64,000 nt of DNA from Microbacterium sp. YJN-G (GTDB taxonomy: Bacteria > Actinomycetota > Actinomycetes > Actinomycetales > Microbacteriaceae): the NCBI RefSeq assembly GCF_015040615.1, contig NZ_CP060402.1, forward strand, positions 496,001 through 560,000, read 5' to 3'. Position numbers and translations under genes: made by a program. Positions 3,935 to 59,442 of the stretch are shown piece by piece; within the stretch, counting starts at the first letter, position 1, and each line of letters starts with the position of its first letter. The notes under the pieces were generated by a model, which saw nothing but the letters and a program-made list of their open reading frames with translations, was not told where the DNA came from and did no database searches.

Positions 3935-4009
3935 CCCGCGAGAAACCACATTCCGCATGAGAAACCATGCGTGCCGTGGTTTCTCGCGCGAGAAGTGGTT
4001 TCTCGCGGG
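3935..4009. repeat. Four-arm palindromic element, family C (GAGAAACCAC core)
   Basis: Outer arms CCCGCGAGAAACCAC (3935-3949) and its exact complement (3995-4009) enclose inner arms GAGAAACCA (3959-3967) and TGGTTTCTC (3977-3985). All four arms share one core. It sits at the 3' end of the glycosylase gene and upstream of the RpiR gene. A second copy is at 16835-16899. A terminator role is likely; there is no T-tract. Confidence 0.8.
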
Positions 4010-5094: not shown

Positions 5095-5182
5095 ATTCAT
5101 CGCAGGTAGGCGATTCATCGCAGGTAGGAGGGAATGCGCGGCATCCGTCCTACGTCGGCCGGATCTCCTACGTCCGATGAAG
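5095..5182. repeat. Four-arm palindromic element, family B (GTAGG core), with a tandem duplication
   Basis: The 77-bp core at 5106-5182 matches the two copies at 44021-44098 and 44159-44236: GTAGG, GTAGG, then CCTAC (5149-5153) and CCTAC (5167-5171), with TTCATCG (5114-5120) pairing CGATGAA (5175-5181). The left arm is duplicated as an 18-bp tandem repeat (5095-5112 and 5113-5130, differing at one position). It lies 3' of the winged-helix regulator gene. Confidence 0.78.
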
Positions 5183-15985: not shown

Positions 15986-16964
15986 GCGCCCGCGCGTGAA
16001 CAGCGAGGTTGCCGGCGTGCACACCGTCGATGACATCATGCGGGCATCCGCGGCCTGGGTCTGGTTCCCGCGCGACAGCGATCAGGTGAAGTCCGAGCTG
16101 CAACTCGTCCGCTACCCGGAACGCTTCGGCGGCGGGGTGCGGGGATCGCAGGTGGAGTCATCTCTTGGTGCCGCGGACGTGCTAGACCATGCCGTCGAGC
16201 GCACCCGCGCCTGGGGCGAGAGCAGGCTGACCTTCTGGACCAACGCCTCGGACAGCCCCGACCTCGAGGGTGAGCTGCGACGCCGGGGCGCGGAGCACAT
16301 CGACACGGTCGCGGTGTTCGCCAGGCCCATCGACGGTCTCTCCGTCGAGGCGCCTCCGCACGTCACGGCCGAGGTCGTGCGCACGCTCGAACAGGTGCGC
16401 GAGGTCGATGCCGTCAACGTGCCGGTCTGGGAGCAGCGTCCGCTCGACGATGAGGGGCTGCAGGAAGAGCTCGCTGAGGTCGTCTCGGGGCTGGAATCGG
16501 GCGAGGGCGCGCGGGTGCTCGCCCGCCTGGACGGCGTCGCCGTCAGCACCGGCGGGTGCACCATCGTCGATGGCTTCGTGCGACTGTGGGGCGCGGCCAC
16601 CCTTCCCGAAGCGCGTGGACGCGGCGCCTACCGCGCGGTGCTCGCCGAGCGACTGCGCGTCGGGGCTGAGCTCGGTGCGACCACGGCCCTCGTGAAGGGT
16701 CGCATCTCCACGTCCGCCCGCATCCTCGCCCGCGCGGGCTTCACGCACATGGCGACGAGCGTGCCTACGTGCTCGAGGTCGCGTAGCGCCGCGCCCGCGG
16801 CATCCGCGTCGCCCGACGCGCCCGCTCCCCGTGTGAGAAACCACTTTTCGCGTGGGAAACCACGGCAGAACGCGTTTCTCGTGCGGAATGTGGTTTCTCG
16901 GCGAATGGGGGCGCGGCGCGGGAGGGCACGCGGGGCGCGTCGCGTGGGTCAGACGGTGCCGTAG
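15978..16964 (+). CDS. GNAT-type acetyltransferase, frameshifted near the C-terminus
   Basis: It starts inside the last codons of the nuclease/helicase gene (8-bp overlap). Residues 1-257 look like a normal acetyltransferase with the acetyl-CoA loop [17 protein letters not shown] and the closing ILARAGFTH. After that the frame gives a low-complexity Arg/Ala/Ser tail of about 70 residues, running through the palindromic element at 16835-16899 and into the 3' end of upp. In the next frame the same DNA reads [11 protein letters not shown] and stops at 16784-16786, the usual end of such enzymes. A one-base deletion at about 16746-16751 explains this. The intact gene would span 15978-16786. Confidence 0.75.
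16835..16899. repeat. Four-arm palindromic element, family C (GAGAAACCAC core), second copy
   Basis: Outer arms GAGAAACCAC (16835-16844) and GTGGTTTCTC (16890-16899) enclose a weaker inner pair, GAAAC (16856-16860) and GTTTC (16874-16878). It lies between the convergent acetyltransferase and upp genes. The core word matches the copy at 3935-4009. Confidence 0.75.
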
Positions 16965-35605: not shown

Positions 35606-35691
35606 CCGCCGAAACCCCTCATGAATGTCGAAACCCCTCGTGATTCGCGCAGATCCTGAGGGGTCTGGGCAACCACGAGGGGTTTCGGCGG
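35606..35691. repeat. Four-arm palindromic element, family A (CCGCCGAAACCCCTC core)
   Basis: 86 bp. Outer arms CCGCCGAAACCCCTC (35606-35620) and its exact complement (35677-35691); inner arms ACCCCTC (35633-35639) and GAGGGGT (35658-35664). It fills the convergent gap between the TauE and aspS genes. Relatives are at 46362-46446, 48101-48186 and 53506-53593. Confidence 0.82.
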
Positions 35692-43962: not shown

Positions 43963-44020
43963 AGCGCGCGCGGTCTCTGAGTTCTCGCCGGGCGTTGGCC
44001 CGTCGCCTGTTCGCACGCAC

Positions 44021-44098
44021 GTAGGCGATCCACCCGGCGTAGGACGCATGCCGCGCGTTCCGTCCTACCCCCGTGCTTTCTCCTACCTCCGGTGAATG
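44021..44098. repeat. Four-arm palindromic element, family B (GTAGG core), copy 2
   Basis: 78 bp: GTAGG (44021-44025), GTAGGACG (44039-44046) pairing CGTCCTAC (44061-44068), and CCTAC (44082-44086). It aligns without gaps to the copy at 44159-44236 and lies in the convergent gap after ccsB. Confidence 0.8.
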
Positions 44099-44158
44099 CT
44101 CGGTCCGGCTCCGGATGCTGCCCGGATGCTGGATCCCTCGGATGCCGGTCGCACGAGC

Positions 44159-44236
44159 GTAGGTGATTCACCCGGCGTAGGACGCAGGTCGCAGGATTCG
44201 TCCTACGCCCGCGCTTTCTCCTACGCCGGGTGAATG
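44159..44236. repeat. Four-arm palindromic element, family B (GTAGG core), copy 3
   Basis: 78 bp. ATTCACCCGGCGTAG (44166-44180) is perfectly complementary to 44221-44235, and GCGTAGGACG (44176-44185) to CGTCCTACGC (44199-44208). The two pairings share bases, so alternative folds exist. It lies 60 bp from copy 2, at the 3' end of the YhgE/Pip gene. Confidence 0.82.
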
Positions 44237-44255: not shown

Positions 44256-46301
44256 CTACGCGGCCGCCAGCACAGCCTTCGCGCTGGTCGTGCGGCGGGC
44301 GGTGACGGCGAGTGTCGCCGCGCCCAGCGACAGCACGGCCCACACGATCAGGCCGGCGGCGGCGGCTCCGTTCGGGGCGATCAGCCCGCTCACCGCCGGC
44401 GCGGTCGGCATCGCGGCGCCGAGACCAGCCAGCCAGCCGGGAATCGTCGAGATGATCCCGGTCGCGAGCGCGATGACGCCGACCAGCGCGCTGATCCAGC
44501 GTCCGATCCCGCCCAGCACCGCGACCAGCGCCTGGTTGATGGCGGCGAACGCGACCCCGGCGAGCACGGCGAACCCGGCGAAGCCCCACCAGGCGGCGGC
44601 GTCGTACGTGGCGACGATCTGCACGATCAGCGCGACCAGCACGCCCTGGCCGGCACCGAGCGCCGCGGCCGGCCAGAATCCGCGCAGCACCATGCCCATC
44701 GACGACCGGCGCGATGTGAGCGCGCTGCCGGGCACCGCGCGCAGCGCGATGAACGAGGCCAGGGCGCCGAACCACAGCACCACGGCGGTGAGCAGCGGAA
44801 TGGCGGTCGGCCCGAACATGGCATCCGATTCCGACGACGACGCGACCGGATCGGCGATGACGGACGCCAGCGACGTGGACTGCGCCTCGTCGAACGAGGG
44901 CAGCGAGGTCGAGGCGGTCTTCAGCCCGTCGGCGAGTTCGCCGGTGCCGGAGGCCAGGGTGTCGAGCCCCGTCGCCAGCTCACCCGCACCGTCGCCCAGC
45001 GCGGTGATGCCATCGCCGAGCTGCGTGGCACCGGATGACAGCGCATCGGCACCGGATGCCGACTGCGCGACACCGTCGGCCAGCTGGCCGAGTCCACCGC
45101 CGAGCTGCGTGGCTGCGGTGCCGGCGGTGCGCAGCTGCTCGGCGATCGCCTTGGGAGCTGCGACGCTGAGCTGCGTCAGCCCGTCGGCGGTGCCGGCGGC
45201 GGCCTGCGCGGCAGGCCCTGCGTACTGGGCGGCCGCTGCGGCGGCCTGCGCGGCCTGCGACGACGGCTCGACCAGCGCGTTCGCGGTGCCGGCGGCCTGA
45301 TCCAGCTGGCCGCAGAACTCCGGGGTGGCGGCGCGATCGCACTGCGCGGCGAGGGCCGCGAGCTGCTGCGAGAGCCCGCCGATGCCCTGCTGCACACCTG
45401 CGGTCGCCTGCTTGGCCCCGTCGGCGGCCTGCTGCACGCCGGCGGTGGCCTGCTTGGCCCCGTTGGCCGCGTCGAGCAGCTGCTGCGGTACGATCCCGTC
45501 GCGCTCGAGGGCGGCCGCACCGGCGGTGAGCCCCTGTCCGAGCTGGGTGGCCCCGGCACCGGCCTCACGCGACTTCGACGCGATCGTGTCCAGACCGCCC
45601 GAGAGCGCGCCCGCGCCGTCAGCCAGACCGCCCGCACCGTCGGCGAGCTTCGAGGCGCCGCCCGGCAGCTCACCCGCGCCGTCGGCGGCGCTGCGTGCGC
45701 CATCGGCGAGCTGCGACGCCCCGTCGGCGGCATCCGAGATCTGATCCCCGATGGTCTTGAATCCGATCAGCACGTTGCCGACCGTCGCCTCGCTGAGCAT
45801 GGTTCCCATGGTCGAAGCCGCGACCGTCGCGATCTGATTCGTGATGAGGTCGTCCGCGACCCGGCCGTCCGGCGGGGTCGTCACCGTGATCTCGGCCTGC
45901 TCGGCGGTGCCTTCGCCGTCCTTCAGCGCGGCGCCGGCCGAGGTCGCGTCGGCCGAGAACGACTTCGGGATCGTCACGACCGCCCGGTACTCGCCGTCGG
46001 CGAGTCCCTCGGCCGCGTCGTCCTCGTTCGAGATGACCCAGGTGAGGTTCGAGTCGAAGTCGTCGGAGCCCTCGACCAGCCCGGCGGCGAGCTGACGCCC
46101 GAGCGGCGTGTACTGCCCGTCGATGGTCACCGGCTTGTCGAGGTTCACGACGGCCGCGGTCATCGAGTCGAGCCGGTCGGTGGGGTTCTGCAGCGCGGTC
46201 ACGAGGATGCCGCCGATCAGGGCGGGCAGCAGCAGCACCCCGCCGAGGGTCAGCCAGGTGATCGGCCGGCGCGAGCGCGCGCGTTCGATGGGAAGGGTCA
46301 C
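44256..46301 (-). CDS. YhgE/Pip family membrane protein (ABC-2-like)
   Basis: A 681-residue protein. One N-terminal membrane segment (LTLGGVLLLPALIGGILVTA) is followed by about 430 outer residues, including long coiled-coil-like heptads of the type LADGAGGLADGAGAL, and then five or six C-terminal membrane segments with the ABC-2 permease pattern. Families of this type include phage-infection proteins and exporters paired with MMPL or ABC partners. The start overlaps the MMPL stop by 4 bp, so both are made together and probably form one export system under the divergent TetR regulator. Confidence 0.88.
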   Translation of the reverse strand: MTLPIERARSRRPITWLTLGGVLLLPALIGGILVTALQNPTDRLDSMTAAVVNLDKPVTIDGQYTPLGRQLAAGLVEGSDDFDSNLTWVISNEDDAAEGLADGEYRAVVTIPKSFSADATSAGAALKDGEGTAEQAEITVTTPPDGRVADDLITNQIATVAASTMGTMLSEATVGNVLIGFKTIGDQISDAADGASQLADGARSAADGAGELPGGASKLADGAGGLADGAGALSGGLDTIASKSREAGAGATQLGQGLTAGAAALERDGIVPQQLLDAANGAKQATAGVQQAADGAKQATAGVQQGIGGLSQQLAALAAQCDRAATPEFCGQLDQAAGTANALVEPSSQAAQAAAAAAQYAGPAAQAAAGTADGLTQLSVAAPKAIAEQLRTAGTAATQLGGGLGQLADGVAQSASGADALSSGATQLGDGITALGDGAGELATGLDTLASGTGELADGLKTASTSLPSFDEAQSTSLASVIADPVASSSESDAMFGPTAIPLLTAVVLWFGALASFIALRAVPGSALTSRRSSMGMVLRGFWPAAALGAGQGVLVALIVQIVATYDAAAWWGFAGFAVLAGVAFAAINQALVAVLGGIGRWISALVGVIALATGIISTIPGWLAGLGAAMPTAPAVSGLIAPNGAAAAGLIVWAVLSLGAATLAVTARRTTSAKAVLAAA

Positions 46302-49255
46302 TTCGTCTCACTCCGTTCGCTCAGTACATCGCATGCGTTCACCTCGGAGTCGGTTGCCGGTCGCCGAGACCCCGTGTTCGCGTCGACACCCCGTGCTGCG
46401 GACGTCTGCAGTCGGGGGTCTGGACGAGAGGTGGGGGTGTCGGGGGAAGAGAGATCGACGAGGGATGCCGCCGGGCGGCCGGCATCCCTCAGCACGGCGT
46501 GCGCGGCGGCGGGGTCGACCGCGGTCACGAATACGGCGACATCGCGGCCGGCGTCGCGCAGGCGGGCGGCGAGCTGGTCGCGCTCGGATGCTGTGAGCCG
46601 GTCGACGCCGTCGAGCACGACCAGTCCGGTGCGACCGCGCAGCGCCTCGGTGGTCTGCGCCGCGGCATCCGGCTCTCCGAGCAGGACGACGCCGACGTGC
46701 GCACGCACCCACACCGCCCGCCCGGGCAGCAGGTGGCCGGCGACGCGCAGCATCCCGGAGTCCGGCTTGACCCTGCCCGCGACGGCGAGCGACAGAGCGC
46801 GCAGGGCGCGCGGCGTCGCGCCGGTGACGACGAGGCTGCCGCCGGGTGCGAGACGCAGATGAGCGTCCCGGATGCCGGCCGCGTCGATCACCAGATCGTC
46901 CGCGGCGAGCACGCTGTCATCGCCCGGCCAGCCGGCCAGCGTCCGCTCGCGCTCGACGGCCTCGCCCTCGATGTCGACGTGCGGAAGGATGCGCTCGAGC
47001 CAGCGGGGGATGCGCCAGGCGCGGTCGCCCAGGATGGTCATCACCGCGGGGATCAGCGTCATCCGCACGAGGAACGCGTCGATCACGATGCCGGCGGCCA
47101 AGCCCAGGGCGATGGGCTTGAGCGAGGAGTCGCCCTCGGGCACGAATGCGACGAACACGGCGAACATGATGAGCGCTGCGGCGGTGACCACGCGGGCGCT
47201 GCCGGCGAAGCCGGAGCGCACCGCCTCGACTGCTGCCTCGCGACCCGAGCCAACGGCGTGCACGAAGTCCTCGCGCATCCGCGAGACGAGGAACACCTGG
47301 TAGTCCATGGCCAGGCCGAACAGCACGCCCATCAGCACAATCGGCATGAAGCTGATGATCGGTCCGGTGCGGGCGACGTGCAGGGCATCGGCGAACCAGC
47401 CCCATTCGAACACGGCGGCCACGACGCCGAAGGCGGCGACGATCGAGAGCAGGTAGCCGGCCGCGGCGGTGATCGGCACCCAGATCGAGCGGAACACGAT
47501 CGCGAGCAGGATGAGCGAGAGACCGATCACGAAGACGCCGAACGGCAGCAGCGCCGCGCCCAGCTGATCGGAGATGTCGATCGCGACGGCCGTGAAGCCG
47601 GTCACCTTCAGGTCGATGCCGTACTCGTCCAGCCACTGGTCGTGGTGCGCGCGCAACTCGCGGACGAGGTCACTGGTCGCCGGGTCGTCGGGGGCGGTCT
47701 CGGGGATGATCTGCACGATGCCGGTGTCGGCGGTCTCGTTCGGGGTGGCCAGGGCGACCTCGCGCACACCGGGGATCTTCTCGACCTCGTCGCCGAGATC
47801 CTGCATGAGGTTCAGCGGGTCGGTCGAGGTCACGATGGTGCCGGTGAGGATCAGCGGACCGTTGAAGCCGGGGCCGAACTCCTCGGCGGTGAGGTCGTAG
47901 CTGACTCGCGCCTCCGAGCCCTTCGGCAGCACGCCGGCGTTGGGCAGCGCGAGGTTCAGGCTCAGGGCGGGCACGGCGACGATCCCCAGCCCCAGCACGA
48001 CGGCGATCGTCACGAGCACGGGCCGCTTCGTCACCCCGTCGACCCAGCGCCGGGAGGCGCTGCGGCGCGGTGCGCGCGCAGCATCCTTCCCCTCCACCTG
48101 CCGCCGAGACCCCTCATGATCGTCGAGACCCCTCGCTGCTGACGTTGCTGCGGAGGGGTCTCGTCGCTGCGTGGGGGTCTCGGCGGAGGAGGATGCGGAG
48201 GAGGCGGAGCGGGAGCGCGAGCGGCGCGGACGCCCCGCCACGCGGCCCTTCATGAATCCGAGCAGCGCCGGGGTGAGGGTGACGGCGATCGCGACGGCGA
48301 TCGCGACGGCGACGGATGCGGCGATGCCCATCGTCGTCAGGAACGGGATGCCGGCGAAGCCGAGGCCGATCAGGGCGATCAGCACCGTGATCCCGGCGAA
48401 CACGACCGCCGACCCGGCGGTGCCCACGGCCCGGGAGGCGGACTCCTCGGGGGCGACGCCGTCGCGCACCTGATCCTGGTGCCTGGCGACGATGAACAGC
48501 GCATAGTCGATGCCGACCGCAAGCCCCAGCATGAGCGCGAGCAGCGGGGTCGTCGACGAGACGGTCGCGAACGCCGTGGCGGCGAAGATGCCCGCCATCG
48601 AGATGCCCACTCCGAGCACGGCCGTCAGCAGGGGGAGCCCTGCGACGACGAACGAGCGGAACGTGACGATCAGTACGAGCAGGGCGATCAGCAGGCCGAC
48701 CGCCTCGGTGATCGTGACCGTCGGGATCGACATGGCGAACAGGTCGCCGCCGAGCGCGGTCTGCGAGCCCTCGGGCAGCTGCGCGCCGAGTTCGTCGACC
48801 GCGGTCTGCAGCTCGGTCTTCACGCTGTCGGACACGTCGCTGGCCTGGCCGTCGAACTGCAGCCGCACGATCGCGGCGGTCTGCTCTTCGTTGATCATGC
48901 CGTCGATGTTCTCGTCGAACGGCGAGGTGACGGCGAGGACGCTGTCGTCGAGGTCGGCCAGCTCGTCGACGGCCTTCTCGATGTCGTCGCGGTAGACCTC
49001 GTCGGTGATGTCGTCACCCGGTGCGGCCACGACGATGAACTGCGCGTTCGTGCCGCTCACCTGCGGGAATGTGCGCTCGAGCTGCTCGAGACCCGCCTGC
49101 GACTCGGTGCCGGGGATCGTGAAGGTGTTGTCCGTTCCCGCGCCGAGAGCGACGGCGCCGCCACCGGCGACTCCCAGGACGATCAGCCACGAGACGAGCA
49201 CGCGCCAGGGGTGCCGGAACGACCAGCGTCCGAGGGTGGACAGGAGTGTGGACAC
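46298..49255 (-). CDS. MMPL-family exporter with a degenerate ABC-ATPase-like C-terminal domain and two in-frame palindromic elements
   Basis: A 985-residue RND-type lipid or drug exporter. Both RND halves are present: helices around 15-340 with LGLAVGIDYALFIVARHQDQ, and around 415-750 with GVLFGLAMDYQVFLVSRMRE. The inter-half loop (about 345-410) is enlarged; residues 357-385 are encoded by a palindromic element. Residues about 780-930 resemble an ABC nucleotide-binding domain with a ruined Walker A (VVTGATPRALRAL) and a Walker B-like strand (LVVLDGVDRLTASERDQLA). Residues 937-965 come from a second element. GGAGG precedes the GTG start. Confidence 0.85.
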   Translation of the reverse strand: MSTLLSTLGRWSFRHPWRVLVSWLIVLGVAGGGAVALGAGTDNTFTIPGTESQAGLEQLERTFPQVSGTNAQFIVVAAPGDDITDEVYRDDIEKAVDELADLDDSVLAVTSPFDENIDGMINEEQTAAIVRLQFDGQASDVSDSVKTELQTAVDELGAQLPEGSQTALGGDLFAMSIPTVTITEAVGLLIALLVLIVTFRSFVVAGLPLLTAVLGVGISMAGIFAATAFATVSSTTPLLALMLGLAVGIDYALFIVARHQDQVRDGVAPEESASRAVGTAGSAVVFAGITVLIALIGLGFAGIPFLTTMGIAASVAVAIAVAIAVTLTPALLGFMKGRVAGRPRRSRSRSASSASSSAETPTQRRDPSAATSAARGLDDHEGSRRQVEGKDAARAPRRSASRRWVDGVTKRPVLVTIAVVLGLGIVAVPALSLNLALPNAGVLPKGSEARVSYDLTAEEFGPGFNGPLILTGTIVTSTDPLNLMQDLGDEVEKIPGVREVALATPNETADTGIVQIIPETAPDDPATSDLVRELRAHHDQWLDEYGIDLKVTGFTAVAIDISDQLGAALLPFGVFVIGLSLILLAIVFRSIWVPITAAAGYLLSIVAAFGVVAAVFEWGWFADALHVARTGPIISFMPIVLMGVLFGLAMDYQVFLVSRMREDFVHAVGSGREAAVEAVRSGFAGSARVVTAAALIMFAVFVAFVPEGDSSLKPIALGLAAGIVIDAFLVRMTLIPAVMTILGDRAWRIPRWLERILPHVDIEGEAVERERTLAGWPGDDSVLAADDLVIDAAGIRDAHLRLAPGGSLVVTGATPRALRALSLAVAGRVKPDSGMLRVAGHLLPGRAVWVRAHVGVVLLGEPDAAAQTTEALRGRTGLVVLDGVDRLTASERDQLAARLRDAGRDVAVFVTAVDPAAAHAVLRDAGRPAASLVDLSSPDTPTSRPDPRLQTSAARGVDANTGSRRPATDSEVNACDVLSERSETK
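46362..46446. repeat. Palindromic element, family A, inside the MMPL coding region (C-terminal copy)
   Basis: 85 bp. AGACCCC (46367-46373) pairs with GGGGTCT (46415-46421) and GACACCCC (46385-46392) with GGGGTGTC (46434-46441). The arms are interleaved rather than nested. Read on the minus strand it encodes PDTPTSR-PDP, then TSAARGVD and TGSRR, closely similar to the peptide from the copy at 48101-48186. Confidence 0.72.
48101..48186. repeat. Palindromic element, family A, inside the MMPL coding region (loop copy)
   Basis: 86 bp, the same length as the intergenic copy at 35606-35691 and alignable to it end to end. Outer arms CCGCCGAGACCCC (48101-48113) and 48174-48186; inner arms CGAGACCCCTC (48124-48134) and GAGGGGTCTCG (48153-48163), both exact. 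It encodes ETPTQRRDP, then TSAARGLD and EGSRR in the cytosolic loop between the RND halves. Confidence 0.85.
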
Positions 49256-53505: not shown

Positions 53506-53593
53506 CCCGCCGAAACCCCTCAGGGCTGCCGATACCCCTCGTGAATTGCGCGATTCACGAGGGGTATCGGCAATCAGGAGGGGTTTCGGCGGG
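53506..53593. repeat. Four-arm palindromic element, family A, most perfect copy
   Basis: 88 bp. Outer arms of 16 bp (53506-53521 and 53578-53593) and inner arms of 20 bp (53527-53546 and 53553-53572) are both exact, with a 6-nt loop. It lies between the convergent HAAS and cyclophilin genes and should form a very stable hairpin in either transcript. Confidence 0.87.
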
Positions 53594-59361: not shown

Positions 59362-59442
59362 GCCCCGATCTGCTGAGCCCGCCCCGATCTGCTGACGTTC
59401 CTGCCCGATTCCTCCGCAGAACGGGTCAACGTCAGCAGATCG
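59362..59442. repeat. Palindromic element, family E (CGATCTGCTGACGTT core)
   Basis: CGATCTGCTGACGTT (59385-59399) and its exact complement (59428-59442) form the main stem, with CCCG/CGGG inside (59404-59407, 59422-59425). A second direct copy of the left arm, CGATCTGCTGA, precedes it within 59362-59376. It sits between the two convergent response-regulator genes. Confidence 0.75.

Follow-up and report, generated by a model that had tools for sequence, protein, structure and literature searches.

Short palindromic repeats that sit at gene ends, and at times within genes, are described in the literature as REPs, and the flanking of RAYT genes by such repeats is likewise on record (PMC3733652; PMC3116915). 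In REPIN/RAYT systems, short dispersed palindromes near gene ends, mainly intergenic, form several families per genome, each tied to the gene that it flanks (PMC3116915; PMC3733652), and a GTAG or CGTC tag beside each palindrome is given as a feature of these systems (PMC3733652). Palindromic repeats in frame with coding sequence have also been published from other bacteria (PMC3733652). Here we describe an 84-bp palindromic element, family A, in a 64,000-nucleotide stretch of Microbacterium sp. YJN-G (contig NZ_CP060402.1, positions 496,001 to 560,000; hereafter, the window), where two copies lie in frame in one MMPL-family exporter gene, and we report that copies of this and of similar palindromes flank many members of one gene family, whose product is predicted to be nuclease-like. 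To our knowledge, the pairing of palindromic repeats with a dedicated gene is known for RAYTs only. The pairing with the nuclease-like gene is a more important result than the in-frame copies.

The MMPL-family exporter gene (46298..49255, minus strand, 985 aa; Pfam MMPL E=3.8e-77) carries one family A element in the loop between its two MMPL halves (48102..48185, minus strand), in frame as ETPTQRRDP...ARGLD...GSRR, and a second, decayed element near the C-terminus (46362..46445, minus strand), in frame as DTPTSRPDP...ARGVD...GSRR. The translation of the loop copy contains SSAETPTQRRDPSAATSAARGLDDHEGSRRQ and that of the C-terminal copy SSPDTPTSRPDPRLQTSAARGVDANTGSRRP; strand and frame are identical, and sequence and translation agree with the original prediction of two family A elements in one frame with matching peptides. 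Such apparent reading-through of a palindrome within a host protein is shared with the Rickettsia palindromic elements (RPE-1 and others). The proposed palindromic nature of both copies was borne out by a finder in which no motif is assumed (four 11-mers, two direct at 16-22 nt spacing and two inverted; maximum score 66), which places each of them, at the coordinates above, as a four-part palindrome. The C-terminal copy scores 52 of 66 and was detected at a laxer threshold only. Since reversal keeps the symmetry of a four-part palindrome, the controls for the finder were far-flank regions and Markov sequence. In single-strand folding against shuffles the DNA fold z of the loop copy is -8.2 and that of the C-terminal copy just -2.0, with 9 of 200 shuffles folding equally well, and on these grounds the latter is considered decayed. 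It also exceeds the 3-mismatch limit of the genome search and therefore falls outside the set of 43 genome copies described below.

In the following, G numbers denote genomes, G000 being the own genome of 3.62 Mb, and L numbers denote loci. The family A element has the motif CGAAACCCCTC at positions 0 and 19 and its inverse at 47 and 66 around a conserved centre, each arm being composed of two direct 11-bp motifs at 19-nt spacing. A search of G000 with CGARACCCCTC-N8-CGARACCCCTC (at most 3 mismatches) returned 43 forward and 43 reverse half-element matches, while the reversed control returned 0 and 1. The 43 complete 84-bp elements align without a gap; a forward match at 630556 was dropped as chance, and one element is known by its reverse half alone. 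Base pairing is maintained within the set, with 60 double-sided compensatory cells versus 26.9 +/- 3.7 in shuffled versions (0/500) and 10-23 in slid versions. Within the window, the intergenic copy predicted at 35606-35691 was recovered by the finder at 35610-35687 (element 35607..35690, between convergent genes, fold z=-5.0), and an additional intergenic copy absent from the original prediction (53508..53591; finder 53509-53590) has the strongest fold among the four family A copies of the window (z=-12.6). Intergenic palindromes are given here without a strand. A search for Rfam families in the window returned no match.

Gene calls around the copies were made with our own simple codon-usage gene caller, which is unpublished. 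By these calls, convergent genes surround 23 of the 43 copies, codirectional genes 16 (8+8) and divergent genes one; two copies are inside called genes, and one has no called right-hand neighbour. The second copy inside a called gene, other than the MMPL loop copy, probably reflects an over-extended start, and in our judgement several overlaps with the ends of called genes are start or stop effects of the caller. Stop codons precede most copies, many within tens of bases. The 30-nt flanks, read towards the element, have C 0.50 and G 0.19 (86 flanks) versus 0.37 and 0.35 in 88 control windows (p ~1e-19), and the C-rich and G-rich flanks of the MMPL loop copy are of the same kind as those seen genome-wide. 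A single strong copy among 43 is, in our judgement, in frame in a real gene, together with one decayed copy, and both are those of the MMPL gene. The original prediction of an element that can invade reading frames stands as regards a dispersed palindrome with two in-frame copies in one gene, but not as regards habitual invasion, with 1/43 judged to be wholly within a real gene. Frame invasion as the main behaviour was rejected on the same count, whereas the Rickettsia elements are known for sitting in genes (PMC3733652). Our verdict is that this repeat family, which is paired with a nuclease-like gene, has given rise to the in-frame MMPL copies as a rare by-product.

The comparison with orthologues that accompanied the original prediction as a check gave clean presence and absence. 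The alignment comprises 80 orthologues and the window protein (81 rows), of which the C-terminal part was inspected for 60 rows, while the palindrome finder covered all 80 orthologue loci. The loop block is present in the window protein and L072 alone (2/81 rows; 79/80 orthologues are without it), and both L070 and L071, the nearest rows to the window protein on a quick tree, lack it. L072 sits elsewhere in this tree, so that at least two changes are needed for the loop block. At the C-terminus, a block or remnant of like kind and frame is found in 9/81 rows (the window protein, L069, L072, L073, L081, L083, L089, L108 and L128). A stretch of 75 nt, in frame, distinguishes L089 from its sister L093 there; L093, which is without the block, retains one motif (GTCGACGCCCCC) at this place, hinting either at collapse between motifs or at insertion into a motif-like target.

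Several further features were observed at the MMPL loci. A second insert, of ~33 nt, is located between the end of MMPL and the start of the next gene (46298-46340) in the window and in L072, where it adds ...CDVLSERSETK, and the MMPL C-terminus of L107 ends in a similar SEQSETK. In Agromyces terreus (L140:6079-6153) the finder returned a four-motif match in the same MMPL loop with a different core, GCGGATGCC, at a score of 55 of 66. This match could be due to chance; GGATGCC seems, by impression, to be common in these genomes.

The gene associated with family A in the own genome (G000:C1:1215477-1216454) is bracketed by two family A copies, ~30 nt and ~110 nt from its ends, and is the one called gene between the palindromes of this 1.27-kb unit; no AbiEii partner lies between them. 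Its product of ~326 aa is predicted to combine an AbiEi-like DNA-binding region (~residues 20-170) with a C-terminal region of Vsr/REase-like type. Residues 22-169 are matched by AbiEi profiles (PADLOC E=1.2e-11 and 2.6e-10), and Pfam searches of 114 relatives at E<=1 returned AbiEi_4 for 47 and AbiEi_1 for 16. Among the aligned proteins, E216 (60/60), D248 (60/61), E259 (60/61), D261 (61/61) and K265 (60/61) are near-invariant, and R287 has at most one exception among 60-61. We take the protein, from its profiles and conserved residues, to be a winged helix-turn-helix (wHTH) region joined to a Vsr/REase-like region with nuclease-type residues. MTES_1575, after which one of the related profiles is named, has been described as a Vsr-type REase (PMC3710099). 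Relatives number 1095 at E<=1e-3 among 7995 proteins scored; among the 120 listed, the named sources are nearly all Microbacterium, and several are called AbiEi-type regulator. A search of plasmids and phages returned three weak plasmid matches (29.5-31% identity, Tsukamurella) and no phage match, on which an origin of the gene from either was rejected. A gene that by eye resembles an IS110-type transposase is located 42 nt past the family A unit, at L045:3316-4389 (G000:C1 1216688-1217761).

The gene is present at E<=1e-10 in 33 of 39 Microbacterium genomes. The survey of its surroundings started from 77 genes (78 rows, two being halves of one gene), of which 61 were examined and 16 weaker ones left out. 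Within 700 nt of the 61 genes, 68 four-motif palindromes were found in 83,477 bp (0.81 per kb), as compared with 7 in 527,036 bp (0.013 per kb) beyond 1500 nt, far regions that use locus L201 twice; the near flanks are thus ~61 times denser. Markov sequence at equal threshold gave 0 matches in 347,670 bp and 0 in 137,679 bp. A palindrome is located near 41 of the 61 genes, and on both sides in 22. On rereading, four of the 68 (one in L213, two in L215 and one in L219) were judged to be simple tandem or GC-rich repeats, and without these doubtful cases there are 64 palindromes beside 39 genes, 21 of them two-sided. The 22 two-sided units range in length from 1199 to 1423 bp, and the upper value belongs to the doubtful unit of L215. 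The cores on the two flanks of one gene have a similarity of 0.93 versus 0.56 when permuted (0/10,000; 23 genes, a number that counts one palindrome overlapping a gene end and the L215 gene). Protein identity also correlates with the similarity of the cores (r=0.44 against a maximum of 0.20 on permutation, 0/5,000; 41 genes). The pairing of palindrome and gene is, in our view, well supported. At L220 (G027:C2:77306-77839), three consecutive CGCATAAACGC palindromes lie to one side of the gene.

Occupied and empty sites could be compared between map and a dsbA-like gene in 26 genomes. In 18 of these the interval is -1 to 169 bp and palindrome-free. In five (G000, G036, G034, G013 and G037) it measures 1340-1594 bp and is occupied by the gene, flanked by a palindrome on either side (in G034 a single one was detected), and in the remaining three (G015, G031 and G010) it is 9-33 bp and the gene is found instead 371-450 bp from infA. 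The palindrome threshold at this site was 0.72, versus 0.78 in the 61-gene survey, the laxer value being needed for the G000 pair. The G037 site was read from a longer stretch. Of 37 infA matches 30 loci were viewed, and in four of these (G012, G004, G037 and G018) the stretch covered contained neither map nor the gene. Genes with different cores share this one neighbourhood across species, in both orientations. The map-dsbA-infA region appears as a hotspot of family members with different cores (L223, L234, L240, L186, L193, L208, L239 and L190). By eye, G-rich tracts follow the right-hand palindrome in five filled sites, and none was seen in the four empty sites compared. In L186 and L193 long G-rich tracts (e.g. 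GGGTGGGTGGGTGGG) lie directly outside the right palindrome and resemble quadruplex motifs.

Across the order, the gene family is found in 115/149 genomes and 55/64 genera (E<=1e-10). From the many loci of this survey thirty were read, 24 of them outside Microbacterium, and palindromes are present at 14 of the 30, the own gene included. Six of the nine palindrome-bearing loci outside Microbacterium have two palindromes, one on or near each gene end; the single palindrome of L267 is doubtful, its motif being itself palindromic.

The dispersed copies of each core were compared with the presence of its gene across the 39 genomes, counting half-element matches, at most two for each element and with those in the gene flanks included. 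Core CGCATAAACGC has 36 matches in G006, 60 in G007 and 43 in G027, with 7 in G009 and at most 2 in each of the other 35 genomes, and a gene with CGCATAAACGC beside it is found in exactly G006 (as a one-letter variant), G007 and G027. Family A has 81 matches in G000, 7 in G014 and at most 2 elsewhere; the reversed control gives 1-2 in five genomes. Core CGAGATGACCC has 10 matches in G006 and 9 in G027, as predicted. Core GCGAGAAACC is present in 10/39 genomes (G033 26, G034 16, G000 15, G037 11, G004 8, G030 7, G036 4, G018 4, G025 3 and G016 1), and a gene with GCGAGAAACC beside it is seen in G034 and G036, as well as, by coordinates, in G004, where matches at 1621070 and 1622187 lie around a gene at 1621169, one of the 16 outside the 61-gene survey. 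Core-rich genomes carry the core's gene for three of the four cores, and the fourth, GCGAGAAACC, is mixed.

We read these observations as a REPIN/RAYT-like mobile system that would be run by an unrelated, nuclease-like protein. The MMPL blocks are, we think, likely to be in-frame insertions of a short non-autonomous mobile element, whose full-length form would be palindrome-gene-palindrome and whose ends would be moved by the gene product. We also lean towards the wider proposal of a new class of bacterial mobile element, in which a gene for an AbiEi-type DNA-binding and Vsr-type nuclease protein stands between four-motif palindromes, and from which the non-autonomous solo palindromes would descend; co-evolution of motif and protein would give rise to several independent families per genome, and solo copies would occasionally add in-frame peptides to host proteins. 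In this scheme the full-length form would be a unit of ~1.2-1.4 kb, consisting of a palindrome, one gene and a palindrome. The N-terminal region would bind the 11-bp motifs of its own family, and the nuclease region would nick or cut at the palindrome. The palindrome ends could then be copied or moved to new sites, usually just past a stop codon, a preference that we propose to arise because a hairpin is least harmful there, with rare landings in a tolerant stretch of reading frame, as may have happened twice in MMPL. The build of the element, its dispersal, its copies beside the gene, the match of core and gene, the filled and empty sites, the conservation of nuclease-type residues and the upkeep of base pairing are results of computation, whereas binding and cutting by the partner protein are proposals and movement by it is our best inference.

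A number of points weigh against this interpretation. Transposition, binding and cleavage are deduced from sequence rather than observed. The Vsr/REase assignment is weak, REase_MTES_1575 matching 6 of the 114 relatives (best E 0.028) and DUF559 4 (Pfam, E<=1), and a search by sequence for a solved relative of the partner protein in the PDB gave none. At the threshold used, 20 of the 61 genes are without a palindrome nearby, and outside Microbacterium palindromes accompany only 9/24 loci. The matching of core to gene is imperfect: G009 has its seven CGCATAAACGC matches with no matching gene flank found; four each of the CGAGATGACCC matches in G006 and G027 are the gene's own flanks, and G024 has five unpredicted CGAGATGACCC matches with no matching flank found, the other genomes having at most 1; and a GCGAGAAACC-flanked gene was not found in the other GCGAGAAACC genomes, including G033, which has the highest count (26), G037, G030 and G000. 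The correlation between protein and core does not separate co-evolution from shared descent. No target-site duplication was readable when filled and empty sites were compared by eye, the flanks being too diverged. Deletion is, moreover, as probable as insertion for L089 and L093, because the empty row L093 retains one motif.

The palindromes could conceivably be operators of an AbiEi-like regulator, with the dispersed copies representing its regulon or roadblocks at gene ends and the nuclease-like region a relic or engaged in another role. Such an arrangement would fit the behaviour of real AbiEi, which is reported to repress its own promoter through 11-bp inverted repeats (PMC3985639), and the position of most copies at 3' ends, since a roadblock there could prevent read-through. 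It is nevertheless unlikely, given that sites occur on both sides of the gene and 1/43 copies lies between divergent genes, that whole palindrome-gene-palindrome units are present or absent per site and in both orientations relative to shared neighbours, and that few positions of the protein are as conserved as its nuclease-type residues.

Alternatively, an unrelated transposase acting in trans, IS110-like or RAYT-like, might mobilize the element, with the AbiEi/Vsr gene as cargo or as a hitch-hiking immunity gene. REP sequences are known targets of insertion sequences (PMC1525189), and the IS110-type-looking gene next to the family A unit in L045 would be a candidate. We consider this quite improbable, as palindromes accompany 41/61 genes of one family and the core follows the partner protein, while a search of the own genome for PF01797 (Y1 transposase) was without a match, and a control search was positive in 5/14 known genomes. 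Mobilization by a RAYT or IS200 transposase was rejected on this absence of a Y1 transposase from the own genome. Most improbable of all is that the palindromes are bidirectional terminators or mRNA 3'-end hairpins of the host that were multiplied by selection or gene conversion, with incidental proximity to the gene, for although a stop codon precedes most copies, often by no more than tens of bases, their flanks are C-rich and G-poor as a Rho-type site would be, and hairpin pairing is maintained, neither the sharing of cores within a genome and their difference between genomes, nor the ~61-fold enrichment beside one gene family, nor the correlation of core and protein is explained. A terminator role may be the reason why copies are tolerated.

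The favoured mobile system shares with REPINs its dispersed inverted motif pairs, which are mostly extragenic (of 43 copies, one is judged to lie wholly in a real gene), and the flanking of a dedicated gene family by the repeats (41/61, or 39 without the doubtful repeats), although this family is not RAYT. It differs in that the own genome is without a Y1 transposase and the partner appears AbiEi-like and Vsr/REase-like, and in that each arm contains two direct motifs. With the AbiE type IV toxin-antitoxin it has in common an AbiEi-like wHTH region by profile, and real AbiEi is reported to bind 11-bp inverted repeats (PMC3985639); the own unit, however, lacks an AbiEii partner, and a nuclease-like region is fused on. 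The likeness to Vsr-fold nucleases (DUF559/REase_MTES_1575) consists of weak profile matches and conserved residues of the E...D...ExD...K type. As with miniature inverted-repeat transposable elements (MITEs), short non-autonomous copies occur beside a longer coding unit, but the ends are a four-motif palindrome instead of simple terminal inverted repeats, and no target-site duplication was readable. Among the open-access matches listed, none links DUF559, AbiEi or Vsr to palindromic repeats, a search in which subscription journals were mostly, and bioRxiv wholly, uncovered, so that absence is not proven.

Further four-motif families are present in the window and in relatives, with a spacing of mostly 19 but also 18 and 20. 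A second family, with core GCGAGAAACC and 19-nt spacing, is located at 3937..4007 and corresponds to the 15 half-element matches in G000; a degenerate second copy was detected at 16833..16901 (score 48 of 66, lax threshold). The gene at G000:C1:2586963-2587778 was considered as its partner and rejected, as its flanks carry a related but different core, CACGAGACTT; these flanks were seen at laxer thresholds only, and the gene is counted among the 20/61 without a palindrome. A third family, with core CGTAGG and spacing 18, has three window copies, one at 5100..5177 and two in tandem between convergent genes (44016-44091 and 44154-44229). A palindrome of this family is also found in L071, and no partner gene was identified for it. 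A possible fourth family, with core CGATCTGCTGA, is represented by a single copy at 59366..59442.

If our interpretation is correct, a second and unrelated protein family would have taken up the combination of palindrome and gene, and this strategy would have arisen more than once. Many orphan actinobacterial genes of the 'AbiEi antitoxin' and Vsr-like kinds, which at present carry toxin-antitoxin or hypothetical annotations, would gain a candidate function, and part of the hairpins that lie unannotated at the gene ends of actinobacteria would be explained. Through the matched cores, DNA recognition by this protein family is directly testable, as natural pairs of protein and motif are available by the tens. 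The MMPL gene would then be an example of such an element adding a peptide to a host protein.

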